Source: Gilvimarinus polysaccharolyticus (GTDB lineage: Bacteria > Pseudomonadota > Gammaproteobacteria > Pseudomonadales > Cellvibrionaceae). From it: DNA of 64,000 bases. The stretch spans positions 1,204,169 through 1,268,168 of the forward strand of contig NZ_LFIJ01000001.1 of assembly GCF_001187555.1 (NCBI RefSeq). Direction: 5' to 3'. A program made the position numbers and the translations under genes. Positions 35,404-48,116 of the stretch are shown here, in pieces (position 1 is the first letter of the stretch; the number at the start of each line of letters is the position of its first letter). Under the pieces are notes generated by a model. It was not told where the DNA came from. It searched no databases and saw nothing but the letters and a program-made list of their open reading frames with translations.

Positions 35404-36282
35404 CTACTCTTGCTCTTGCGTTATTTGCTTGTACTCGAGATATTCTTGCGAGTACGGATATTTATTTTTTAGCGCCATTACATAGCTAGCTTCGCGGTCT
35501 TTGTTGCCAAAAATTCGCTCAAGTTTAATCCCCAGCAATAACGTTTGTGGCGCAGGACGGGCGATTTGCCCGTAAGCATCTAAATAGCGTTTAGCCGAAG
35601 CATAATCGCCCTGCTCAAAATAAAGCGCCGCCAGTTCATACTTAACAGCGGGCATACCGGCATTAATACGGTTCGCGCGTTCGAAGGCCTCTTTGGCTTT
35701 TTCAGGCTCGTTTAACTTAAGCGCGGTACGCCCTAAATTAACCATAACCTCAGCCCGATTGTCATAATCAAGCGCCTCAGACGCCCTATAAAATTGATCA
35801 TAAGCTTCAGCATAACGCTCGCGCCCAAACAAAAAAGCACCATAGTTATTGCGCGCACGGGTGTAGCCGCTATCTTGCCGCAAGGTTTTTTTAAAGTACT
35901 CCTCTGCAAGTTTAGGCTCGCCCTCCAGCTGATAAAGCATCGCCGTTGCAAAAGTTGCGTCCAACGAGTTACTGTCTAATTCAAAGGCTTTACGCAGATG
36001 ATGACGCGCCGACTCACGGTTTTTACTTTCTATATATTTAAGCGCTAACTCCACATGACTGCTTAGGGCTTTATCTTCATCAACCTGATACTTTGATGCG
36101 GGCACTGTACTCACGCAGGCAGAAAGCACTAGGGCACATAAAACACCTATAAACACACTCAGCAATCGTCGCACCGCACACAAGGCCGTCATGGTAGAGG
36201 ACACATTGAGGGCCTCAGCTTTGGCTATCATTTGTTTGATCGTATTTAACGTAAACATGCTATGTTCATCGGAGCCTTGCAT
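35404..36282 (-). CDS. pilW: Type IV pilus biogenesis/stability lipoprotein PilW (PilF)
   Basis: Outer-membrane TPR lipoprotein that helps PilQ secretin assembly. The start at 36282 is set by AGAGGTG six bases upstream, giving 292 residues. However, the lipoprotein signal (RRLLSVFIGVLCALVLSAC) begins about 30 residues later, and an internal ATG at 36192 would give a standard 26-residue signal peptide but has no ribosome-binding site. The mature part is a run of six or so TPR units such as ARNNYGAFLFGRERYAEAY. Position between rlmN and rodZ is the conserved one. Confidence 0.88.
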   Translation of the reverse strand: MQGSDEHSMFTLNTIKQMIAKAEALNVSSTMTALCAVRRLLSVFIGVLCALVLSACVSTVPASKYQVDEDKALSSHVELALKYIESKNRESARHHLRKAFELDSNSLDATFATAMLYQLEGEPKLAEEYFKKTLRQDSGYTRARNNYGAFLFGRERYAEAYDQFYRASEALDYDNRAEVMVNLGRTALKLNEPEKAKEAFERANRINAGMPAVKYELAALYFEQGDYASAKRYLDAYGQIARPAPQTLLLGIKLERIFGNKDREASYVMALKNKYPYSQEYLEYKQITQEQE

Positions 36283-36397
36283 CAAAACACCTCTTTGATT
36301 ACTTACGATTCGCTTACATTCCTTCGAAGCTTTCAATATTAACGCCACTCGATTAAAGAGTATTTAAGCTTTAGCCACTTGAAAACTGAACAGGCAG

Positions 36398-37555
36398 TTA
36401 ACTTACAAAAGTCACTGGCTCGTCTTTTACAAAATTAGCTCGGTATCGCTCTGAGCGTTTAGTGAGATCGTTTACGGTGCCAGCCAACTGACCACAAGCC
36501 GCGTCAATATCATCACCACGAGTCGTCCGCACGGTGGTAATAAAACCCTCTTCAATCAAAATATCCTGAAAACGCCGCAAGGCGTTATTACTAACACGTT
36601 TATAGTTAGACAGATTAAAAGGATTAAAAGGAATTAAGTTGATTTTTACTGGCACTTCGCGCAGCAACTGTGCCAGCTCACGAGCGTGTTCGGGCCGATC
36701 ATTAACGTGATCGATCAAGGTGTACTCAATCGTAATTTTACGGTGAGTATCAGGCAAACCGGCAATGTAACGCTGAGCGGACTCGAGCAACATGGCGATA
36801 GGATACTTGCGATTAATGGGTACTAACTCGTTACGCAGCGCATCGTTTGGAGCATGCAGTGAAATGGCCAAGCAGGCGTCAGTGTATTCACCCAGACGAT
36901 CTAACTGTGGTACTACGCCCGATGTACTTAAAGTGACACGGCGCTTAGAAATCCCATAAGCGTTGTCGTGCATCATCAGGTTCATTGAATCAACAACGTT
37001 GTCGAAGTTCATCAACGGCTCGCCCATGCCCATCAGCACTACGTTGGTAACTCGGCGCGGCGCACCGGCTACCGTTTGGCCAAACGACTTAGCCGCGATC
37101 CATACTTGGCCAATAATTTCGGCAGCGGTTAGATCGCGGTTAAAGCCTTGCTTACCCGTCGCACAAAAGCTGCAGTCGAGTGAGCAACCCACTTGCGAGG
37201 AGACACACAAAGTGCCGCGCTCGCCCTCGGGAATAAATACAGTCTCGACCACACTGCCGCCGGTTACGCGAATCAAAAACTTGCGGGTGCCGTCACTCGA
37301 GTCGAGTTGTTCTAACACTTCGGGCGCAACAATCTCACAGCGTTCTTTGAGTTTTTCACGCAGAGGCTTGCTGATGTTGGTCATCTCATCAAAATTATCA
37401 ACACCTAATTGATGAACCCACTTGAGCACTTGAGCGGCGCGAAAGCGCTTCTCACCCATGGATTCAAAAAAAGCAATCAGCTTAGACTCAGGTAACCCCA
37501 AGAGGTTGATCTTGTCTATTTGGGGAGCACTTATCTCTACGCTTTCGTCTGACAT
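36398..37555 (-). CDS. rlmN: Dual-specificity RNA methyltransferase RlmN
   Basis: Radical-SAM enzyme making m2A at 23S A2503 and at position 37 of some tRNAs. 385 residues. The cluster motif CxxxCxxC is CSLDCSFC, the methyl-carrying Cys is near AACGQLAG at the C-terminus, and [12 protein letters not shown] is a family signature. The 4Fe-4S cluster again ties it to the suf genes. It follows ndk by 17 bases. Confidence 0.98.
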
Positions 37556-37572: not shown

Positions 37573-37998
37573 TTAGCGCGAATGAATTTCCTCGGCGGAA
37601 AAGAAGTACGCAATTTCACGTGCCGCAGCTTCCGGCGAATCAGAACCGTGTACCGCATTAGCGCTAACCGCTTGGGCAAAATCGGCACGGATTGTCCCGG
37701 GGGCCGCATCAGCTGGATTAGTGGCACCCATCAGTTCGCGATTTTTAGCAATCGCGTTGTCGCCTTCTAGCACCTGTACACAGACAGGGCCCTGCACCAT
37801 AAACTCTACTAATGAGGCAAAAAAGGGTCGCTCTTTATGCTCGGCGTAAAAACCTTCCGCTTGCTCTTGCGTCAGTTGAATGAGCTTAAGCGCCGCAATT
37901 TTTAACCCAGCCGCTTCAAATCTTTGGATAATCGCGCCAATGTGGTTATCACCAACCGCATCGGGCTTAATAATTGACAGTGTCCGCTCTTTACTCAT
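37573..37998 (-). CDS. ndk: Nucleoside-diphosphate kinase
   Basis: 141-residue enzyme transferring the gamma phosphate between nucleoside triphosphates. The catalytic His is in [12 protein letters not shown], and [13 protein letters not shown] starts the ferredoxin-like fold. First gene of the ndk-to-der transcript. Its upstream region carries a perfect palindrome around a -10 box (separate entry). Confidence 0.98.
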
Positions 37999-38044: not shown

Positions 38045-38079
38045 ACCCAAAACCCGCGAATTATACGCGGGTTTTGGGT
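38045..38079 (-). promoter_or_regulatory. Palindrome enclosing a -10 box upstream of ndk
   Basis: A perfect 14-bp inverted repeat (38045-38058 / 38066-38079) has a 7-base loop that reads TATAATT on the minus strand. This is a consensus -10 hexamer placed for ndk, with the right arm as the GC-rich discriminator and early leader. It also lies 29 bases after the sufE stop, so the same DNA may form the suf terminator hairpin. No good -35 at 16-18 bases was found. Confidence 0.6.
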
Positions 38080-38107: not shown

Positions 38108-38530
38108 TTAGCTCGCCTCGTGCGCGGTACGCTGAATACGCTGCACCATAGATTTCAAACCGTTGCCTCGAGTCGCGCTGAGGTGATTTAACAAGTTTAA
38201 CTCAGCAAAATAGCCGTCAATATCAAATGCAGCTACCTCGGCCGGAGTTTTACCATTGTAAGCCGCCAGCACTACAGCCAACAGCCCCTTAACAATAAAG
38301 GCGTCGCTGTCGGCGACAAAAAATAGCGCGCCATCGCGTGACTCGCTGCGCAACCACACCGGGCTCTGGCAGCCCCGCACGATGTTCTCATCGGTTTTGT
38401 AGCGTTCATCCAGTGCTGGCAGCTCTTTGCCCAGATCGATAATATACTTGTAACGCTCTTCCCAGCCATCAAAAAAACTCAGCGTATCGATAATATCGGC
38501 GCTAGTGATCTCTGTACCAAATTCACTCAT
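38108..38530 (-). CDS. sufE: SufE-type sulfur-transfer protein
   Basis: 140 residues. Accepts persulfide sulfur from SufS and stimulates its activity. The acceptor Cys is in VRGCQSPVWL at about residue 50, and the N-terminus DIIDTLSFFDGWEERYKYI is typical. Last gene of the suf operon, 29 bases after sufT. Confidence 0.95.
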   Translation of the reverse strand: MSEFGTEITSADIIDTLSFFDGWEERYKYIIDLGKELPALDERYKTDENIVRGCQSPVWLRSESRDGALFFVADSDAFIVKGLLAVVLAAYNGKTPAEVAAFDIDGYFAELNLLNHLSATRGNGLKSMVQRIQRTAHEAS

Positions 38531-38559
38531 TTACTGTCCTAATGTGTTTACCGCCACAA

Positions 38560-39099
38560 TCAAAAAAACATGCCGGTTTCTAGCTGTGCCTCTTCGCTCA
38601 TCATATCGCGGCTCCAAGGTGGATCAAACACCAGCTCAACCTCAACTTCCTGGACATTGGGCACCTTGCTGACCCGATATTCTACGTCGCCCACCAATAC
38701 CGGCCCCATGCCGCAAGCCGGTGCTGTCAATGTCATGGTAATGCCCACATGACCACGAGCTTGATCTATATCTAGGGTATAGATTAGGCCCAAATTAACC
38801 AAGTCAACTGGGATTTCGGGGTCAAAGACAGTTTTTAACGCCTCCCACACCTGCTGGTCACTGATCTGGCCATCACCTGCGTCAGTAAAGTGCAGCGCCT
38901 CGGGCTCTTTGCCCAGCGCAGCGGCATCTAAGCCATCTACCCGCACCATTTGGCCGTGATAGCTGAGAGTATAATTCCCCCCCAGCGCTTGGGTGATAGT
39001 TACAAAAGTATCTTTAGGGATGGTTACCGGGGTGCCATCAGGCACTCGCCGAGCAGGACAATCGGCCTGCATCACCACCATTTCACGCTCTGTTGCCAT
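38560..39099 (-). CDS. sufT: Fe-S assembly protein SufT (MIP18/DUF59 family)
   Basis: 179 residues with a C-terminal DUF59 domain (VWEALKTVFDPEIPVDLVNLGL, then TAPACGMGPVL with the conserved Cys) and an N-terminal extension of about 80 residues (DCPARRVPDG...TQALGGNYT) that distinguishes SufT. It is thought to aid cluster transfer to apoproteins. Encoded between the A-type carrier and sufE, as in many suf operons. Confidence 0.92.
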   Translation of the reverse strand: MATEREMVVMQADCPARRVPDGTPVTIPKDTFVTITQALGGNYTLSYHGQMVRVDGLDAAALGKEPEALHFTDAGDGQISDQQVWEALKTVFDPEIPVDLVNLGLIYTLDIDQARGHVGITMTLTAPACGMGPVLVGDVEYRVSKVPNVQEVEVELVFDPPWSRDMMSEEAQLETGMFF

Positions 39100-39122
39100 A
39101 ATAAACGCTCGAGTGTGCGGGC

Positions 39123-39485
39123 TTAACCCACGTTAAAGCTTTCACCACAGCCACAGTGATCTTTGGCGTTGGGGTTTAAGAAGGATAGCTGCCGATTAAC
39201 ACCCTCGGTGACGTAATCGATCTTGGTGCCTCGAATTACGTTTTCACTCGCTTCAGCAACATACAAAGTCACGTCGTCTTGCAGCACAATCTCACGATCA
39301 TCTGCCGTACCTTTAGCCACTAAGTCCAACACATACATAAAACCCGTGCAGCCACTTTCTTTAACCGACAAGCGCACAGCTGTCGCCGTTTTGTCAGCCG
39401 CTAACTGTTGACTAAAATGCTTAATCGCGGCCGGTGTCACCTCAACCAACGCAGTTTGAGCGGGATTAAATTGTTCAACACTCAT
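39123..39485 (-). CDS. A-type Fe-S carrier (SufA/IscA family)
   Basis: 120 residues from the ATG at 39485, which has GGAG seven bases upstream. Three conserved cysteines: one in KESGCTGFMYVL and two in DHCGCGESF at the C-terminus. The first 12 residues of the longer reading are not conserved. It should pass clusters made on SufBCD to target proteins. Whether it is closer to SufA or IscA cannot be told without alignment. Confidence 0.92.
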   Translation of the reverse strand: MSVEQFNPAQTALVEVTPAAIKHFSQQLAADKTATAVRLSVKESGCTGFMYVLDLVAKGTADDREIVLQDDVTLYVAEASENVIRGTKIDYVTEGVNRQLSFLNPNAKDHCGCGESFNVG

Positions 39486-39547
39486 GCTATTCTCCAAAGG
39501 TAATGCGTGTACTGCGTACATAGCATTACGGTCTAGTTGCGCGTTTA

Positions 39548-40777
39548 TTAAGCTAAAAACATTTTGGCTTTTTTTAGGGCGGCCATGAGCTTGGCAACAT
39601 CGTCTTGATTATTGTACAAGCTAAAGCTGGCGCGCACTGTGCCAGGTATTGCAAATTGATCCATAATCGGCTGCGCGCAATGATTACCCGTGCGCACGGC
39701 AACCCCCTGCTGGTCAAGAAGCATACCGACGTCTTGCGGGTGCGCAAAATCACACACAAAACTCATCACCGCTGTTTTATTTGCCGAGGTGCCAACCAAC
39801 TGATAACCACCCAACTCAAGCAACTGCAGTTGAGCGCTGTTTAATAACTGTTGCTCGTGGGCATCGGCGGCACTGCGATCAAACGATTGCAAAAAATCCA
39901 CCGCCGCCGCTAAGCCAATGGCACCGGCGATATTGGGTGTGCCCGCCTCAAATTTATACGGCAGCTGGTTGTAGACTGTACCGGTAAAACTTACCGACTC
40001 GATCATCTCGCCGCCACCTTGATACGGCGACATTGCTTCTAGCAGATCACGCTTACCGTACAGTGCACCAATTCCTGTGGGACCAAACATTTTGTGGCCA
40101 GAGAACACTAAAAAATCACAATCCAGCGCTTGTACATCAATTGGCAAATGGGCAATCGACTGCGCGGCATCTATCAACACCTGTGCGCCCTGCGCGTGGG
40201 CTAAAGCAATAATTTCTTTGATCGGGTTGATACTACCCAACGCATTAGACACATGGCCCACAGCCACCATCTTCACGCGGGCATCTAGCTGCGCGGCAAA
40301 AGCATCCATATCAATAGTACCGCTCGCATTAACAGCGATTGGCTCTACCGTCGCACCGGTCAACTCTGCCACCATTTGCCAAGGCACGATGTTCGAGTGG
40401 TGCTCCATGGCTGACACCAGTACGCGATCACCCGATTTAAGGTTGGCGCGCCCCCAACTGGCAGCGACTAAATTTATCCCCTCCGTGGTGCCTCGTGTCC
40501 ACAGCAACTGCTCTTTTGTCGGCGCGTTAATAAACGCTGCCAACTGAGCGCGAGCGAGCTCAAATTTCTCCGTCGCACGATCACTTAACGCATGCGCGCC
40601 ACGGTGTACATTACTGTTGTCATAGCGATAATAATTAGCAATCGCGTCAATCACCGAGTTGGGCTTTTGGGTAGTCGCCGCATTATCAAGGTAAACCAAT
40701 GGATGGCCGTTTACCTCTTGCGCCAATATCGGAAACTGAGCGCGAATACTCGCCGCATCAAATTGAGTCAAGATCAT
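39548..40777 (-). CDS. sufS: Cysteine desulfurase SufS
   Basis: Type II PLP-dependent desulfurase, 409 residues from the ATG at 40777, which lies inside the 3' end of sufD (20-base overlap, different frame). The PLP Lys is in FSGHKMFGPTG and the persulfide-forming Cys in RTGNHCAQP, with the short active-site loop of group II enzymes. N-terminus VYLDNAATTQKP is typical. It works with SufE, the last gene of the operon. Confidence 0.96.
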   Translation of the reverse strand: MILTQFDAASIRAQFPILAQEVNGHPLVYLDNAATTQKPNSVIDAIANYYRYDNSNVHRGAHALSDRATEKFELARAQLAAFINAPTKEQLLWTRGTTEGINLVAASWGRANLKSGDRVLVSAMEHHSNIVPWQMVAELTGATVEPIAVNASGTIDMDAFAAQLDARVKMVAVGHVSNALGSINPIKEIIALAHAQGAQVLIDAAQSIAHLPIDVQALDCDFLVFSGHKMFGPTGIGALYGKRDLLEAMSPYQGGGEMIESVSFTGTVYNQLPYKFEAGTPNIAGAIGLAAAVDFLQSFDRSAADAHEQQLLNSAQLQLLELGGYQLVGTSANKTAVMSFVCDFAHPQDVGMLLDQQGVAVRTGNHCAQPIMDQFAIPGTVRASFSLYNNQDDVAKLMAALKKAKMFLA

Positions 40778-42089
40778 CTCCATCAAACAACAACAAATCG
40801 ACATCGCGACCAAACTGATGCGCCAGCTCGGGCAGCAAATAGCCAAGCACTGCTTGATTTTCAAGCTGTTGAATCAACTCATTAATAAAACCAAAACTCA
40901 ACATTATTCGCGCTTGATCTTTGTCGACACCGCGAGCTTGCAGATAATACAAGGCATCATCGTTAATTTGACTAACAGTGGCGCCATGGGCGCAGCGTAC
41001 GTCATCGGCGTAGATTTCAAGCTCAGGCTTGGTGTCTATCTCGGCTTTATTTGAGGTTAAAAGATTTTTATTGCTAAGCTGGGCCAAAGTTTTTTGCGCA
41101 TCTTTGTGGATATGGATACGACCATTAAACACAGCCCGAGCCCGATCGCCGATAATGCCGCGAAACACCTCATTGGTGGTGCAATGCGGTACGCAATGTT
41201 GCACATTGGTGTGGTAATCAACCAATTGTTTATTGCGCGGTAGATACACACCATTTAGCTCAACATGAGCGCCGGCACCGCGGTGCATCAAACCGTAATC
41301 GATCCGAATCAACTCAGCGCCTTTAGCAATAGCAAAGCCGTCAAAATTAGCGTCGCGATTAAGCTCGACAAACACACCACCTACGTGATGAATCGCCTCG
41401 CCTTCTAGGTTTAAACGGTAGTGCTTAAAGCGTGCGTTATCGCCAATAACCACTTCGGTCTGGGCATTAACAAAACCTTTCGTAGCGTCGGTCGCGGTTG
41501 CGTAATGCTCAACCACCTCAGCTTCGGCACCCTGCTCTAGCACCACCAACAAGCGAGTGTTGACTAATGGTGCAGCCGTCTCGCTGATTCGATTAACAAG
41601 ATACAACGGTTTATCAAGCTTAACGCCTGCCGCCACATGCAGTAGTACGCCCTGCTGCAACAGTGCTTCACTCATGGCCGCAAACAGGTGCTGTTCGCTA
41701 TCAGCTAAACGACCTAAATGCGCCTCAATAATCTTGCTTTGCGCATCGTCAGCATCGGCAAACAGAGTCAAGGCTGCGGGCAACTCACCGCAAGCTGCCG
41801 TATCAATAACGCCATCGGTAATCACTAATCGGTAGGCGTCGGCATCAATCCAGGCATCGACCGGAAAACTCGCTGGGTCGCCCTGATTGGCCGCCCCAAA
41901 AGATGCCACCTTGCCTAACGCGGCAAGTGATGTGTACTTCCAGCTCTCGGTACGGCGACTAGGCCAATCAACGGCCTGAAACCGTTGGCTGCCGCGCTCG
42001 CGCAGGTTTTGAAGCCATTGCGGCGTCGTTAAATCTTGCTCAGGCAGCTCTTTGGCCAGCGACAAAGCTTGCCGCTTAAAATCATTCAT
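40758..42089 (-). CDS. sufD: Fe-S scaffold component SufD
   Basis: 443 residues from the ATG at 42089, which shares its A with the sufC stop (TAATG), giving translational coupling. The right-handed beta-helix core ends with EIYADDVRCAHGATVS, containing the Cys/His pair that in E. coli SufD joins the cluster-assembly site with SufB. The C-terminal helices (ARIMLSFGFINELI) bind SufC. Part of the SufBC2D complex. Confidence 0.96.
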   Translation of the reverse strand: MNDFKRQALSLAKELPEQDLTTPQWLQNLRERGSQRFQAVDWPSRRTESWKYTSLAALGKVASFGAANQGDPASFPVDAWIDADAYRLVITDGVIDTAACGELPAALTLFADADDAQSKIIEAHLGRLADSEQHLFAAMSEALLQQGVLLHVAAGVKLDKPLYLVNRISETAAPLVNTRLLVVLEQGAEAEVVEHYATATDATKGFVNAQTEVVIGDNARFKHYRLNLEGEAIHHVGGVFVELNRDANFDGFAIAKGAELIRIDYGLMHRGAGAHVELNGVYLPRNKQLVDYHTNVQHCVPHCTTNEVFRGIIGDRARAVFNGRIHIHKDAQKTLAQLSNKNLLTSNKAEIDTKPELEIYADDVRCAHGATVSQINDDALYYLQARGVDKDQARIMLSFGFINELIQQLENQAVLGYLLPELAHQFGRDVDLLLFDGDDLDSI

Positions 42090-42838
42090 TACGCCACCCC
42101 GCCTTCCAGCCAACCGTAACCTTTAGCCTCTAACTCTTTCGCTAAGCTTTTATCGCCCGACTTAACAATTTTTCCGTCGGCTAAAACATGTACGTAATCT
42201 GGCACAATATAATCAAGCAAACGCTGGTAGTGTGTAACCACAATAAAGCTGCGATCTTTGTTGCGCATAGCATTTACACCATCGGCAACAGTTTGCAGCG
42301 CATCAATATCTAGGCCCGAGTCTGTTTCATCCAAAATGCATAAGCTAGGCTCAAGCAGCATCATTTGTAAAATTTCGTTGCGTTTTTTCTCGCCCCCCGA
42401 AAAGCCTTCGTTAACACCGCGTTTTAAAAACGCTTGATCCAGTTTCACTTTTTGGCTGGTAGTACGTGCCAGCTTCATAAACTCTACCGATGACAGTGCA
42501 GGCAACCCTTTGTGTTTACGCACAGTGTCAACCGAGACTTTTAAAAATTCCATATTGCTGACGCCGGGTATTTCTACCGGGTACTGAAACGCCAAAAACA
42601 CCCCCTCACGTGCCCGCTCTTCAACCGCAAGGTCAAATAAGTTTGCGCCTTTAAATTCAACTGTTCCGCTACTGACCTCATAACCATCGCGCCCCGACAA
42701 CACATTGCCTAGGGTGCTTTTACCGGCGCCATTAGGCCCCATAATGGCGTGCACTTCACCAGGCTTTATCTCAAGGCTTAGGCCTTTAAGAATTTCTTTG
42801 TCTTCAACGCTGGCGTGGAGATTGTTTATGCGTAACAT
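42089..42838 (-). CDS. sufC: Fe-S assembly ATPase SufC
   Basis: 249-residue ABC-type ATPase. Walker A GPNGAGKST, signature EGFSGGEKKRNEI and Walker B LCILDETDSGLDID are all intact. It drives conformational changes in SufBC2D. GAGAG lies about eight bases before the ATG. Confidence 0.98.
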   Translation of the reverse strand: MLRINNLHASVEDKEILKGLSLEIKPGEVHAIMGPNGAGKSTLGNVLSGRDGYEVSSGTVEFKGANLFDLAVEERAREGVFLAFQYPVEIPGVSNMEFLKVSVDTVRKHKGLPALSSVEFMKLARTTSQKVKLDQAFLKRGVNEGFSGGEKKRNEILQMMLLEPSLCILDETDSGLDIDALQTVADGVNAMRNKDRSFIVVTHYQRLLDYIVPDYVHVLADGKIVKSGDKSLAKELEAKGYGWLEGGVA

Positions 42839-42895
42839 AGTTCGGTTCTCTCAATCATTAAATTTTGTGGCGGTTAAGCGATACGTCGACCGTCA

Positions 42896-44332
42896 TTAAC
42901 CTACCGAGCCTTCAAGGCTAACCTCGAGCAGCTTGCCGGCCTCAACCGCAAACTCCATCGGCAACTCTTTAAACACCTCACGACAAAAGCCGTTGACGAT
43001 CATCGACACTGCCTTTTCAGGATCTAGGCCGCGCTGTGCGCACAAAAACATTTGATCGTCGCTAACTTTTGAGGTGGTCGCCTCGTGCTCGATAACCGCA
43101 CTGGGGTTTTTGCTTTCAATATAGGGGAAGGTATGGGCACCGCAGCGATCGCCAATAAGCAGCGAGTCACACTGAGTAAAGTTACGCGCCCCATCGGCGC
43201 CGGGATTCATCCGCACTAAGCCGCGGTAGCTGCTATCGCTACGCCCTGCCGAAATACCTTTAGCAATTATAGTAGAGCGCGTATTTTTACCAATGTGGAT
43301 CATTTTAGTACCGGTATCGGCTTGCTGAAGATTATTAGTCAACGCCACCGAATAAAACTCACCAACACTGTTGTCGCCACGCAATATGCAACTGGGGTAT
43401 TTCCACGTTATCGCTGAGCCTGTCTCAACTTGGGTCCAGCTAATTTTTGCACTTTCGTGACAAACACCACGCTTAGTCACAAAATTATAAATACCGCCTT
43501 TGCCCTCGGCGTCACCAGGATACCAATTTTGTACGGTCGAATATTTGATTTCTGCGTTGTCGCAAGCAACCAGTTCAACCACCGCTGCGTGCAATTGATT
43601 TTCATCACGCATCGGGGCAGTACAACCTTCAAGATAGCTCACGTGAGAGCCCTCTTCTGCGACAATCAAGGTACGTTCAAACTGTCCGGTGTTTTGCTCA
43701 TTAATTCGAAAATAGGTTGACAGCTCCATCGGGCAGCGTACACCTTTAGGAATAAATACAAACGATCCATCCGAGAATACGGCTGAGTTGAGCGCGGCAA
43801 AATAATTATCTTTTTGCGGCACAACCGAGCCTAAATATTTTTTAATAAGCTCAGGGTATTTTTCAATCGCTTCGCTAATACTGCAAAATATCACTCCAGC
43901 CTCAAGTAACTTTTCCCGAAAGGTGGTTACCACGCTGACCGAATCGAATACCACATCCATTGCGACACCGGCAAGTACCGCCTGCTCATGCAGGGGAATG
44001 CCAAGTTTTTCATAAGTGGCGAGCAGCTCGGGATCGACCTCATCTAAACTTTGTGGGCGCTCATCCATACTTTTAGGGGCGCTGTAGTAGGAGATAGATT
44101 GAAAGTCTACCGGCGGGTATTTAACTTTTGCCCAATCGGGAGATTCCATTTCTTGCCAAGCGCGAAACGCTTGCAGACGCCAGTCGAGCATCCACTCGGG
44201 CTCATCTTTTTTAGCCGAAATAAAACGCACCACATCTTCGTTAAGACCGGGTGGCAACGTTTCAGATTCAATAGCGGTATGAAACCCCGCGGCATACTCT
44301 TTACTGATTAGGTGCTCTACCTGTTCAGACAT
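42896..44332 (-). CDS. sufB: Fe-S scaffold component SufB
   Basis: 478 residues, the main scaffold of the SufBC2D complex. Landmarks: [16 protein letters not shown], the beta-helix core with [14 protein letters not shown], and the Cys in [12 protein letters not shown] corresponding to the essential Cys of E. coli SufB. The C-terminus [13 protein letters not shown] matches. It is 109 bases after the iscS-type gene, the largest gap inside the operon. Confidence 0.98.
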
Positions 44333-44441
44333 TTCTCACCTCTTTCTTCGCTGTGGCGAAGTGCTCAGGAATTACCCGAATGACTAATCACATGCCGCCA
44401 TAGCGACATTCGATGCGGCTTGGGCGCCGTCTTGTTTGTAC

Positions 44442-45614
44442 TTAACTGACTTTTGCTGTGAGCTTACCGACCACCGTATTAATGTGAGCAATCGTGCGTT
44501 CGACTTCGTGCTCGGTGGTGTAGCGCCCCAGTGAAATACGCAAAGTCGCCAACGCCTCGGCATCACTTAAACCAATCGCCTTTAAAACGTAACTGGGCGC
44601 CATGCTGGCTGAGGTGCAGGCAGAGCCCGTCGACAAAGCCAGCTCTCGTAGTGACAACAACAACAGCTCGCCATCGAGCTCACCAAATGTCACGCTTAAA
44701 TGGCCACAGGCACGCGCGCTCGGATGACCATTGACACGAACACCCGGCAAACCCGCAATACCAGCCCAAAGTCGATCGCGCAATTGTGCAACCTGCTCTG
44801 GGCTGTTTTTTTGTTCGGAGCCTCGCTCCAGCTCAGCGCGAGCTAAATCGGCGGCCACACCAAAACCCACGCACTGATGAGTCGCCAAGGTGCCAGAGCG
44901 CATACCGCGCTCGTGGCCACCTCCGTGGATTTGCGCGGCCAGCTTGAGCGCCGGACTACGACGCACATACAAGGCGCCCACACCTTTGGGACCATAGAAT
45001 TTATGCGCCGACAGTGACAGCAAATCGGCGCCTAACTCGGTAACGTTTACCGGCATTTTACCCAGCGCCTGCGCGGCATCGACATGCAATAAACAGCCGT
45101 GCTCGCGGCACAATTGGGCTATCTCGGCAATTGGGTTAATGGTGCCCAGCTCGTTATTAACCAACATCACGCTCACCAAGCGAGTATTGCTACGCAAGAC
45201 ACTCGCAACCGCTTGAGCTGTAATCCTGCCGCTGCTATCGGGGGCAATCAAACTCAACTCATGCCCCTGCTCGGCCAGCCATTGAGCTGGGTCGAGCACA
45301 GACTTATGCTCTATGGCACTTACCGCCAAATGCCCTACATCTTTGCCCGCCGACTCAAACACTCCCTTTAATGCCAAATTGTTTGATTCGGTCGCACCAC
45401 TCGTCCAAACGATCTCGCGAGCATCGGCGCCAATAAGCTCAGCAATCTGCCCGCGCGCCGTCTCAACGGCCTCTTCGGCTTGCCAACCGTACCGGTGTGA
45501 ACGTGATGCAGGGTTGGCAAAGTTACCATCAAGCGTCAGGCACTGCGCCATGGCCTCTGCAACCTCGGGGGCAACCGGCGTGGTCGCAGCGTAGTCTAGG
45601 TAGATGGGTGTCAT
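44442..45614 (-). CDS. IscS-type cysteine desulfurase
   Basis: Type I PLP desulfurase, 390 residues. The start IYLDYAATTPVAPEVAEAM and GNFANPASRSHRYGWQAEEAV closely match IscS. The PLP Lys is in SAHKFYGPKG and the mobile-loop Cys in TGSACTSASM. Its C-terminus stops soon after the SLGRYTTEHEVE block, about 20 residues before the end of E. coli IscS, and so lacks the tail that helps bind IscU. No iscU is in the window. It probably supplies sulfur for tRNA thiolation (for example TtcA) or to SufBCD. Encoded 27 bases after iscR. Confidence 0.93.
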   Translation of the reverse strand: MTPIYLDYAATTPVAPEVAEAMAQCLTLDGNFANPASRSHRYGWQAEEAVETARGQIAELIGADAREIVWTSGATESNNLALKGVFESAGKDVGHLAVSAIEHKSVLDPAQWLAEQGHELSLIAPDSSGRITAQAVASVLRSNTRLVSVMLVNNELGTINPIAEIAQLCREHGCLLHVDAAQALGKMPVNVTELGADLLSLSAHKFYGPKGVGALYVRRSPALKLAAQIHGGGHERGMRSGTLATHQCVGFGVAADLARAELERGSEQKNSPEQVAQLRDRLWAGIAGLPGVRVNGHPSARACGHLSVTFGELDGELLLLSLRELALSTGSACTSASMAPSYVLKAIGLSDAEALATLRISLGRYTTEHEVERTIAHINTVVGKLTAKVS

Positions 45615-45641
45615 ACTACTGATCTCAATCCCAAGCGACGC

Positions 45642-46139
45642 CTAATGGCGGTCACTGCAAACAATGTGTTTTGGCAGAGGCTCGGGTTCTAAATTGGCGC
45701 CACGGCGCTCATCTTGACGTTTACAAACCACTTGAATATCTCGCCGCTCCACTAGGTCGGCTAGCGTGATACCACTTAAAAACTGATGGATTTGACCACT
45801 TAGGTCCTGCCACAGATGATGGGTAATGCAGATTTCACCGTCCTGACAATCGCCTTTGCCTTTGCAGCGAGTCGCATCCAGCGACTCGCTTACGGCATCA
45901 ACAACCTGCACGATGGAGATTTCGTTAGCCGTGCCGGCCAAGCAATAACCACCGCCTGGGCCGCGCACGCTGCGCACCAAAGTTTCACGGCGCAGCTTGG
46001 CAAACAACTGCTCTAAATACGATAACGAGATTCCCTGACGCTCGGAGATGTCAGCAAGACTCACAGGCCCACACTCACCATGAAGTGCAAGATCCAGCAT
46101 AGCGGTTACCGCATAGCGGCCCTTGGTGGTCAATCTCAT
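45642..46139 (-). CDS. iscR: Fe-S-sensing transcription regulator IscR
   Basis: Rrf2-family repressor, 165 residues. N-terminal winged helix ([19 protein letters not shown]), wing residues in [11 protein letters not shown], and the cluster ligands in [21 protein letters not shown] (three Cys and a His, spaced as in E. coli IscR). Holo-IscR should repress this operon through the type 1-like site at 46239-46263, with derepression when Fe-S demand rises. It heads the suf operon. Confidence 0.97.
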
Positions 46140-46238: not shown

Positions 46239-46263
46239 ATGTCCGACCATTTTACTCAACTAT
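46239..46263 (-). promoter_or_regulatory. IscR type 1-like operator upstream of iscR
   Basis: On the minus strand these 25 bases match the E. coli IscR type 1 consensus (ATASYYGACTR, WWW, YAGTCRRSTAT) at about 21 positions. Both half-sites (ATAGTTGAGT and GGTCGG) are recognisable. It lies 100 bases before the iscR start, a suitable place to control the operon. The consensus is recalled from memory. Confidence 0.65.
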
Positions 46264-46321
46264 TGCACATATTCCAAGCACCGTAAGGCGGCGGGCGACT
46301 TAAGCGCAAGGATTCTCGCAC

Positions 46322-47110
46322 TTAGGCCTCAGAATCATCAGCTGACAACGCTTTAATTTCATTGCGAGAGCGAAAGATGTAGTTCTGGGTACTGGTAAGT
46401 ACACCGCGCAAAATACTCAGCTCCATTTCATCCATACGAATACGCCCGTACAAGCGGCGTAAACGTGTCATAGTTTGGCGCGGGTTGTCCGGCTCTAAAA
46501 AGCCCAACTCTTCTAGTGTTTGCTGTAGGTGGTCGTAGTAGCGCTCAAGGCCGTCCACCTTGGCTGGCGGTACATCCCAATCATCGAAGGTTGGTGCTTT
46601 ACCTTCCTGCCACGTTAAGTGGGCCATGCGCAACTCATAGGCAATCACCTGTACTGCGCACGCTAAATTAAGCGAGCTGTAATCATCGTTGGCCGGTATG
46701 TGTACATGGTAATGGCACTTGTGCAGCTCTTCGTTGGTGAGGCCACGATCCTCGCGACCAAAAATTACCGCCACTTCGTGCTCGCCCGCCTCGGCGATAG
46801 CTTTGGTGCCACACTCACGTGGGTTGACCAACGGCCAGGGGATTCTACGCTCGCGAGCACTGGTGCCAACCACTAAGCCACAATCGGCAATAGCCTCATC
46901 CAATGTCTCCACCACAATCGCATTGTCTAGAATATCTTGGGCGCCAGCAGCGCGCCAAACAGCTTTTTCGGCGGGAAAATCTTTAGGTGCAACTAGGTAT
47001 AGCTTTGTCAAACCCATGTTTTTCATGGCGCGTGCAGCACCACCTATATTGCCTGGGTGGGAGGTATTCACCAGCACAATACGCAGGTTATTTAATCGGT
47101 TTTCGCTCAT
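46322..47110 (-). CDS. trmJ: tRNA (Cm32/Um32) methyltransferase TrmJ
   Basis: SPOUT methyltransferase adding 2'-O-methyl to position 32 of several tRNAs. 262 residues from the ATG at 47110. Knot motifs: NTSHPGNIGGAARAMKNMGL at the N-terminus, VIFGREDRGLTNEEL, and NLACAVQVIAYELR. A C-terminal helical extension (RLRRLYGRIRMDEMELSILRG) is typical of TrmJ. Its usual neighbour cysE is absent between it and iscR. Divergent from suhB. Confidence 0.96.
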   Translation of the reverse strand: MSENRLNNLRIVLVNTSHPGNIGGAARAMKNMGLTKLYLVAPKDFPAEKAVWRAAGAQDILDNAIVVETLDEAIADCGLVVGTSARERRIPWPLVNPRECGTKAIAEAGEHEVAVIFGREDRGLTNEELHKCHYHVHIPANDDYSSLNLACAVQVIAYELRMAHLTWQEGKAPTFDDWDVPPAKVDGLERYYDHLQQTLEELGFLEPDNPRQTMTRLRRLYGRIRMDEMELSILRGVLTSTQNYIFRSRNEIKALSADDSEA

Positions 47111-47173
47111 CAACGCACCCTTGGATAAGATTGCCCATGCACTGGGCTAACTAAAAGGGCGGCATTCTAACAA

Positions 47174-47312: not shown

Positions 47313-48116
47313 ATGGAACCCATGCTGAATATTGCTTTGCGTGCTGCGCGCAAGGCCGGCGAACTGATCGAGCGCGCATCTGAGCGCGTTGACCTTGTTT
47401 CTATCGAGGAAAAAGATCGCAATGATTTCGTTACCGAGGTGGATAAAGCCGCCGAGAAAGAAATCATCTACCACCTAAGAAAGGCTTTTCCAGATCACAG
47501 CATCATCGGCGAAGAAGGCGGCTCTCAGCCGGGCAGCAACACCGATGTTGAGTGGATTATTGACCCTCTGGACGGCACCACTAACTTTATTCACGGCATC
47601 CCACACTACTCAGTTTCTATCGCCTGCCGCATCAAAGGCCAGCTAGAGCACGCGGTAGTATACGACCCCATCAAGCGCGAAGAATTTACCGCCAGTCGCG
47701 GCCGTGGCGCAACCCTTAATGGTCGCCGTATGCGCGTTAGTAATCGTCGTGGCTTAGCCGGCGCCCTTATCGGCACTGGGATTCCTTTTAACGGTTACGC
47801 GCTAGAGAACATCTCCCCCTATTTAGCCGCACTGCAAGAAATTGCTGGGCAAACAGCGGGCATTCGTCGCGCCGGATCGGCCGCACTCGACTTAGCTTAC
47901 GTGGCTGCAGGCCGCTTTGATGCCTTTTGGGAAATGAACCTAAATAGCTGGGATATGGCTGCAGGCATCTTATTGGTAAAAGAAGCCGGTGGTCTGGTGA
48001 GCGATTTCCATGGCGCACACAATTACATGGATAACGGCAATATTATTTGCGGCGGCCCTAAAGTGTTTAAGCCAGTATTACAAATTGTGAAAAAACATAT
48101 GGAACACATCCGCTAG
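47313..48116 (+). CDS. suhB: Inositol-1-monophosphatase SuhB
   Basis: 267 residues, Mg2+-dependent phosphatase of the IMPase fold; in E. coli SuhB also joins rRNA antitermination complexes. Metal ligands in IGEEGG and in DPLDGTTNFIHGIPHYSVSIA, and the C-terminal motif WDMAAGILLVKEAGG. Followed by a strong hairpin terminator. It is usually next to secF; here a histidine kinase gene lies between. Confidence 0.96.
   Translation: MEPMLNIALRAARKAGELIERASERVDLVSIEEKDRNDFVTEVDKAAEKEIIYHLRKAFPDHSIIGEEGGSQPGSNTDVEWIIDPLDGTTNFIHGIPHYSVSIACRIKGQLEHAVVYDPIKREEFTASRGRGATLNGRRMRVSNRRGLAGALIGTGIPFNGYALENISPYLAALQEIAGQTAGIRRAGSAALDLAYVAAGRFDAFWEMNLNSWDMAAGILLVKEAGGLVSDFHGAHNYMDNGNIICGGPKVFKPVLQIVKKHMEHIR

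Follow-up and report, generated by a model that had tools for sequence, protein, structure and literature searches.

A suf block in the isc slot of Gilvimarinus polysaccharolyticus and the fate of the IscS kept beside it

What becomes of the cysteine desulfurase IscS when the iron-sulfur cluster (ISC) genes that adjoin it in relatives are replaced by genes of the sulfur utilization factor (SUF) system? The question is raised by a locus of Gilvimarinus polysaccharolyticus, within a 64-kb stretch of contig NZ_LFIJ01000001.1 (hereafter the window, meaning the whole stretch analysed). Here trmJ, iscR, iscS, sufB, sufC, sufD, sufS, an A-type carrier gene, sufT, a sufE/csdE-type gene, ndk, rlmN and a pilW-like gene follow one another on the minus strand. 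A first-pass annotation had read the same run at 46139-38108 and the same flanks; open reading frames (ORFs) and family profiles confirm the genes, and ORFs and the gene order of relatives confirm trmJ upstream and ndk-rlmN-pilW-like downstream. The comparisons below point to a history that we consider probable, in which iscUA-hscBA-fdx-iscX was lost repeatedly, sufBCDSATE was gained in the same slot, and IscS was kept as a sulfur donor for tRNA and cofactors.

The isc-suf run and the iron-sulfur genes of the genome

The regulator gene iscR (45642..46139; like the rest of the run, on the minus strand) encodes 165 residues that match TIGR02010 at 211.7 bits (cut-off 207.55) and show a C-x5-C-x5-C-x2-H spacing, the residues of which we take to be ligands. 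After 27 bp comes iscS (44442..45614), which encodes 390 residues and lacks the C-terminal IscU-binding tail; its best model, PRK14012 IscS, scores 496 bits, below the cut-off of 548, and the match reaches model position 383 of 406. A gap of 109 bp separates it from sufB (42896..44332; PRK11814, 914.9 bits), the ATPase gene sufC (42089..42838; TIGR01978), sufD (40758..42089; TIGR01981) and the desulfurase gene sufS (39548..40804; TIGR01979; start codon uncertain, overlapping sufD), all four above cut-off. The A-type carrier gene (39123..39521) is above cut-off for TIGR00049, with SufA models the best among equivalogs but below cut-off, and is followed by a long-form sufT (38560..39099; TIGR03406, 249 bits, cut-off 202.6) and the gene for a sufE/csdE-type sulfur acceptor (38108..38530), which is below equivalog cut-offs. 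These genes identify a SUF system through sufB, sufC, sufD and sufS together with the sufE-type gene. With iscR and iscS running directly into sufB, sufC, sufD and sufS on a single strand and IscU lacking, the run is by layout an isc-suf hybrid operon, its co-transcription being predicted from the short gaps.

The genome (3.74 Mb in 7 contigs, 99.98% complete) contains no NifU_N/IscU match at all in a search whose positive control was found in 12 of 14 genomes, and thus no IscU elsewhere that would speak against a swap. The best HscA match genome-wide is below the model cut-off (614 against 708 bits), so that neither the scaffold nor the chaperone that define an ISC system was found. None of iscU, iscA, hscB, hscA, fdx and iscX lies at the locus, which for HscB, Fdx and IscX is as far as the search extended. 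Two desulfurases had been described as sharing one operon, and the two strong Aminotran_5 matches of the genome (484 and 274 bits) do both lie there, with two weak ones (38 and 29 bits) elsewhere. The genome also has two TusA-family genes and ThiI, and gave no frataxin match.

Slot contents among relatives

The 202 rows compared consist of 80 named loci, found via IscS as the best of 587 candidates, which lean to near relatives because only these were taken, 120 further stretches (100 from the same order and 20 from the same family), the window and Escherichia coli. The order set comprises 145 genomes, of which 100 were taken as loci besides the window's own and 44 were not. Setting aside 3 duplicates, an extra Cupriavidus copy (L167) and 8 rows outside the Gammaproteobacteria or not placed in them leaves 190 gammaproteobacterial rows; some come from the same genome (for example L148 and L184), so the counts are not all independent. 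A row is termed ISC if iscU is present within the stretch taken.

Among the 190 rows, 76 have isc genes beside iscS, and in 47 iscS is followed by suf on the same strand. In 4 rows suf follows iscS in inverted orientation, in 5 it precedes iscS, and 1 row reads iscS-iscR-suf; neither system adjoins iscS in 48 rows, and 9 more have only an A-type carrier gene. The flanks recur, trmJ in 158 stretches and ndk in 145, and some stretches end short of them. The suf block of the window occupies the slot between trmJ and ndk where relatives carry isc, with iscR and an iscS retained, as first proposed. In-line suf is present in Cellvibrionaceae, Oceanicoccus, an OM182 bacterium, a Saccharospirillaceae bacterium and Alteromonas genovensis, and inverted suf at the slot in Lacimicrobium. 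IscS with neither system adjoining was found in Idiomarina, Thalassolituus, Halopseudomonas, Parahaliea, Marinospirillum (with iscA) and Lonsdalea.

At the genome level, a NifU_N match is present in 78 of the 145 order genomes. These were sorted by hand, with long frames assigned to NifU, weak matches to SufU-like proteins and two fragments at contig ends (G041) counted as IscU, leaving 67 genomes with ISC-type IscU. SufB is present in 80/145 (77 above cut-off; G011, G091 and G108 match weakly). Only 4/145 genomes have both IscU and SufB, and 2/145 have neither. Of 100 genomes in the window's family, 40 gave a NifU_N match; judged by the length of the frame, 28 of these look IscU-like and 10 NifU-like, and 2 are weak.

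Several loci depart from these layouts. In L190 (G009, f10) iscS precedes its regulator, in the order iscS-iscR-suf. In L205 and L226 (G042 and G079, f42) a lone iscS lies beside trmJ, and an iscR match fronts suf elsewhere (L008, L020). Six loci (L201, L220, L236, L247, L144 and L158) read iscR-iscS-iscA-ndk with no iscU, hscBA or fdx adjoining, a single ISC part having been kept. The isc-suf run of L294 (G209) is in line except for a ferredoxin match that separates sufE from ndk.

In the window the left flank trmJ (46322..47113, minus strand) was identified from the gene order of relatives and E. coli trmJ rather than a family profile, and suhB beyond it (47313..48116, plus strand) from its ORF and the same gene order. 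There is no cysE between trmJ and iscR, since the gap is only 182 bp. The right flank, likewise on the minus strand, is ndk (37573..37998; family profile and relatives' gene order), then rlmN (36398..37555) and the pilW-like gene (35404..36348), both read from ORFs.

Tail and partner surfaces of IscS

The window IscS and its E. coli counterpart align with 52% identity up to window residue 385, E. coli residue 380, which bears out the description of the window enzyme as tail-less. In E. coli, IscS without residues 376-404 does not bind IscU, and the C-terminal segment contacts IscU, according to the available excerpt of PMC2854127. Across the 202 rows the tail is present in 79/79 with iscU and in 1/123 without, the exception being the Cupriavidus copy; in the Gammaproteobacteria alone the figures are 76/76 and 0/114. 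Six of the 114 non-ISC gammaproteobacterial rows retain a decayed tail stub (L155, L157, L192, L208, L251 and L299). In the IscS tree two of the stub lineages, that of Lonsdalea (L155/L157) and that of L251, cluster with relatives that have the tail. A quick tree of the flanking genes suhB, trmJ, ndk and rlmN, covering 128 of the 202 rows (at least three of the four genes; 3 duplicates dropped), gives 14 changes of ISC state and 14 of the tail, with tail and ISC agreeing in 11 of 11 independent contrasts on its starred branches (p 0.00098). Two genomes with both systems (G004 and G078) have a tailed IscS, and the tail therefore follows ISC rather than the absence of SUF.

In Lonsdalea quercina (Enterobacterales; L155 and L157), iscR-iscS stands without adjoining isc genes, with ndk next in L157 and L155 ending before it. 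The IscS tail is half decayed and 6 of 9 picked ISC-face residues are kept, which looks like a recent loss.

The erosion extends beyond the tail. The window IscS retains the pyridoxal phosphate lysine K206, the active-site cysteine C328 and H104, as expected of a group I desulfurase. In the 114 non-ISC rows H104, K206, C328 and W45 are kept in 100%, position 52 is always D or E, and R220 and R237 are kept in 97%, whereas R223 falls from 100 to 15% and R225 to 29%, F89 to 8%, E347 to 29% and S312 to 25%. Contact lists were drawn from positions named in the excerpt of PMC2854127, up to residue 375, the IscU list consisting of 309-316 and 347 only; the test included neither the tail nor the end of helix 11 nor A327. 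Up to residue 375, 130 positions do not vary among the 76 ISC rows, and their mean retention in non-ISC rows is 86%. Against random draws, the invariant IscU contacts (58%, P 0.004) and CyaY/IscX contacts (59%, P 0.002) are kept less often, as are those of ThiI (68%, P 0.027), the list of which overlaps that of CyaY; the TusA positions W45 and R220 are kept at 99% (P 0.77). In ISC rows F89, R223 and R340 are kept in 100%, both where the genome has ThiI (21) and where it lacks it (9); in non-ISC rows they stand at 10-28%, again whether ThiI is present (39) or not (32; F89 9%). They therefore go with ISC and not with ThiI. A nine-position "ISC face" score was chosen after the residue table had been seen, and its P value is not used. 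Mean entropy per position is 1.32 bits in tail-less IscS and 0.73 bits in tailed IscS.

Some partner genes are unlinked to the slot. Frataxin was found in 36/67 IscU genomes and in 1/78 others, the exception being a 75%-complete assembly in which neither IscU nor SufB was found; in genomes at least 90% complete the counts are 35/58 and 0/70 (Fisher p 2.7e-16). Where both share one contig the frataxin gene is far from isc. That none of the 70 IscU-less genomes of this completeness gave a frataxin match bears on why bacteria mostly keep ISC or SUF and rarely both. The TusA family is present in 138/145 order genomes, including 78/78 without IscU, and the 7 TusA-less genomes are all ISC and belong to two families (G024, G064, G096 and G124 in f24; G041, G078 and G135 in f41). 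Four IscS sequences were examined from these 7 genomes, and all four have A at position 49, a residue found in 0/72 other ISC rows (one has Q, L186); the position is not E in 32/114 non-ISC rows. As a marker of TusA, E49 is weak.

Taken residue by residue, IscS without ISC is a protein in which the catalytic residues and the main TusA contact are kept and the IscU and CyaY/IscX contact residues are lost. Several points weigh against so clean a division. Only two TusA positions were invariant enough for the test, and R220 is shared with other partners. R220, G234, R237 and A327, which are on the CyaY/IscX list too, are kept in 97-100%. E49 is E in 71/76 ISC rows and 82/114 non-ISC rows, so the TusA face is not wholly kept. 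The residue draws take no account of relatedness (family-weighted means are nearly the same), and the frataxin association is uncorrected for phylogeny, with frataxin missing in 31/67 ISC genomes as well. The two desulfurases in one operon are nevertheless probably not a redundancy, because IscS has lost the IscU and CyaY/IscX contacts yet keeps W45 and R220. The IscS of gammaproteobacteria that have only SUF is predicted to serve TusA and not IscU. How the faces of the IscS hub are assigned to its partners is usually a question for mutants, and these loci offer a natural experiment with 11 independent contrasts.

History of the slot and comparison with known systems

Outgroup rooting (quick IscS tree, mixture model) places isc with a tailed IscS at the base, and not as the derived form, the alternative left open by the first-pass annotation; isc may have been regained in single lineages. 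From this state, the gammaproteobacterial locus trmJ-iscR-iscS-...-ndk would repeatedly have lost iscUA-hscBA-fdx-iscX, and many lineages would have received a sufBCDSATE cassette in the same slot, leaving SUF as the only general iron-sulfur machine found. SufS and the SufE-type protein, judged from their known families, would feed sulfur to SufBCD. IscS would have been retained because it also supplies the sulfur that tRNA thiolation and other cofactors require, a role to which the residue pattern points, and, freed from IscU, frataxin and IscX, it would have lost its tail and the residues that contact them.

The suf genes have their own bearing on how often this happened. On the SufB+SufC tree, members of the window's family occupy at least three separate positions; the subgroups used for the identity map were chosen after it. 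In L290-L295, sufD is 65% identical to family f47 and 43% to the window's subgroup, and sufS 75 and 55%, whereas trmJ is 59% identical to f47 and 70% to the window's subgroup, and rlmN 65 and 78%. The suf genes do not track the flanks, and the slot was therefore filled more than once, with different cassettes. The in-place swap as first proposed thus stands in part: suf is in the isc slot and the isc state is older, but 14 changes of ISC state on the flank-gene tree, a slot that contains suf in differing gene orders and orientations or nothing at all, and suf blocks of different ancestry do not allow a single swap. The SufB and IscS trees that the first-pass annotation had called for show suf cassettes of different ancestry within one family, consistent with transfer, and an IscS history that depends on the model and on the rows included. 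Of the SufB matches in a plasmid collection the one examined, from Azospirillum, has sufU and no iscS and was used only as an outgroup.

It is possible, if rather doubtful, that the iscS-suf block instead spread as one unit by homologous replacement across the conserved flanks, the tail-less IscS being mostly one old lineage. The trees offer evidence for this scenario, which counts against repeated decay in place. The LG+G4 tree of IscS (173 of the 202 rows) groups by state; on the 94 rows that have all six genes compared, IscS requires 3 state changes, and suhB 11, trmJ 9, iscR 14, ndk 16 and rlmN 10. Such clustering fits shared descent, co-transfer of iscS and the block, or an artefact caused by the higher variability of tail-less IscS. 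When a mixture model and distant outgroups are used, a starred set of 66 non-ISC rows persists, with only Lonsdalea and L251 outside it among the Gammaproteobacteria. In L290-L295 all seven suf genes, iscS, iscR and ndk are nearer f47 than the window's subgroup, and suhB, trmJ, rlmN and pilW are not; the IscS of L290, L291 and L293 groups with f47, as does their suf. The iscR (74 against 69%) and ndk (75 against 68%) of L290-L295 thus side with suf, but the closeness of iscR says little because f47 iscR is equally near all three subgroups (74-75%).

Other observations are harder to reconcile with spread as a unit. Tail stubs occur in several separate places (L192, L208, L299, L251 and Lonsdalea), and at several contact positions many different amino acids occur, with no one shared replacement. 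L190 joined the Alteromonadales in the mixture-model tree with outgroups. A later IscS tree left out eight rows, the five distant outgroups and L190, L195 and L212; in it the tail-less Alteromonadales form a clade together with Vibrio, Shewanella and E. coli (support 93, branch not starred), and the approximately unbiased test does not reject any of three mixed groups imposed as constraints (p-AU 0.62, 0.47 and 0.49). Constraining Halopseudomonas to group with Pseudomonas raises the likelihood. The single tail-less set dissolves only in part, and only after these eight rows are removed, so a single tail-less lineage as drawn by the LG+G4 tree is weakened and not removed by the mixture model and the row removal. 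Repeated decay of IscS in place, with some co-transfer, appears the likelier course. More generally, the locus might be a module slot, a notion we hold tentatively and with belief nearly balanced against doubt: resident IscR and IscS between fixed flanks, whole iron-sulfur machines exchanged by recombination, and scars left in the IscS surfaces according to the remaining partners (the tail and IscU face, the frataxin/IscX face and perhaps E49 where TusA was lost).

The regulator's end of the locus contains an IscR type-1 operator-like site (46239..46263, minus strand) that matches 21 of 25 positions of a consensus and overlaps a -10-like hexamer. Promoter-like hexamers upstream of iscR lie at 46277..46249 on the minus strand, from a scan in which the total of promoter-like sites is close to that expected by chance (13 against 8.8, sd 3.3). 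At the other end, a 14-pair inverted repeat between sufE and ndk (38045..38079) may mark the end of the operon; it is called terminator-like on the plus strand only, and terminator-like sites overall are at chance in the same scan (11 found, 11.1 expected). In control scans the E. coli iscR promoter scored 24/25 and the best shuffle of the window stretch 19. Scores of at least 19 were obtained in 57/59 suf-locus rows, 70/75 ISC rows and 28/39 others. Two points temper this result: the best of 20 shuffles reaches 19 in 9/59 suf rows, 20 ISC rows and 4 others, and the consensus in the scan is one that we presume to represent type-1 IscR operators. Together with the layout and the absence of IscU, the site suggests that suf took over the isc promoter; the iscR promoter, with a type-1 operator, is probably the one that drives suf. 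An essential pathway would then have been replaced behind a seemingly unchanged regulator.

The location of iscS and sufS in one run behind one operator-like site could also mean that both enzymes feed SufBCD as a SUF machine with two desulfurases. We regard this as improbable, given that sufS and a sufE-type gene are both already there and that tail-less IscS occurs without adjoining suf in 48/190 gammaproteobacterial rows (57 with the rows that have only an A-type carrier gene).

Parts of this picture are familiar. In the excerpts available, Rhodobacter sphaeroides (PMC4618611) and Caulobacter crescentus (PMC11475020) are described with an isc-suf operon in which iscR-iscS precedes sufB, sufC, sufD and sufS, with two desulfurases, and R. 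sphaeroides as having no IscU (PMC4618611). The window run resembles these in its iscR-iscS-sufB-C-D-S order and its two desulfurases and, like R. sphaeroides, its genome lacks IscU. However, both alphaproteobacterial operons have an extra ORF after sufB in those descriptions (PMC4618611, PMC11475020), and relatives of the window carry isc at the same place. Acquisition of the whole operon from Alphaproteobacteria, for which the shared iscR-iscS-suf start would speak, is thus very improbable and was set aside by comparison with the published descriptions, no alphaproteobacterial operon being aligned: identity to E. coli IscS is 52% for the window enzyme as against the 34.9% given for Caulobacter IscS in the excerpt of PMC11475020, and the flanks are those of the gammaproteobacterial isc locus.

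The E. coli ISC operon shares the suhB-trmJ-iscR-iscS flank, the operator-like site and the catalytic residues of IscS with the window; unlike it, the window locus is without iscU-iscA-hscB-hscA-fdx-iscX and the IscS tail, and its genome gave no match to frataxin. Exclusion between ISC and SUF in Gammaproteobacteria is stated, with reference to another paper, in the excerpt of PMC10631705. A search of open-licence PubMed Central, as far as its texts were available, returned no account of same-slot gammaproteobacterial swaps or of erosion of IscS faces. Alphaproteobacterial isc-suf operons and ISC/SUF exclusion are thus already known, and the repeated same-slot swap and the IscS erosion are apparently new. 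Halopseudomonas and P. phragmitis are reported in the excerpt of PMC11559095 to have SUF instead of ISC in basal Pseudomonas lineages, and SUF likewise stands in place of ISC in the window genome. In Halopseudomonas xiamenensis (L154), unlike in the window, trmJ leads directly into iscS and ndk; the locus contains no suf, and the scan gave no match to iscR. As excerpted, PMC11559095 maps the presence and absence of SUF and ISC; the window adds the position of suf and the fate of IscS.

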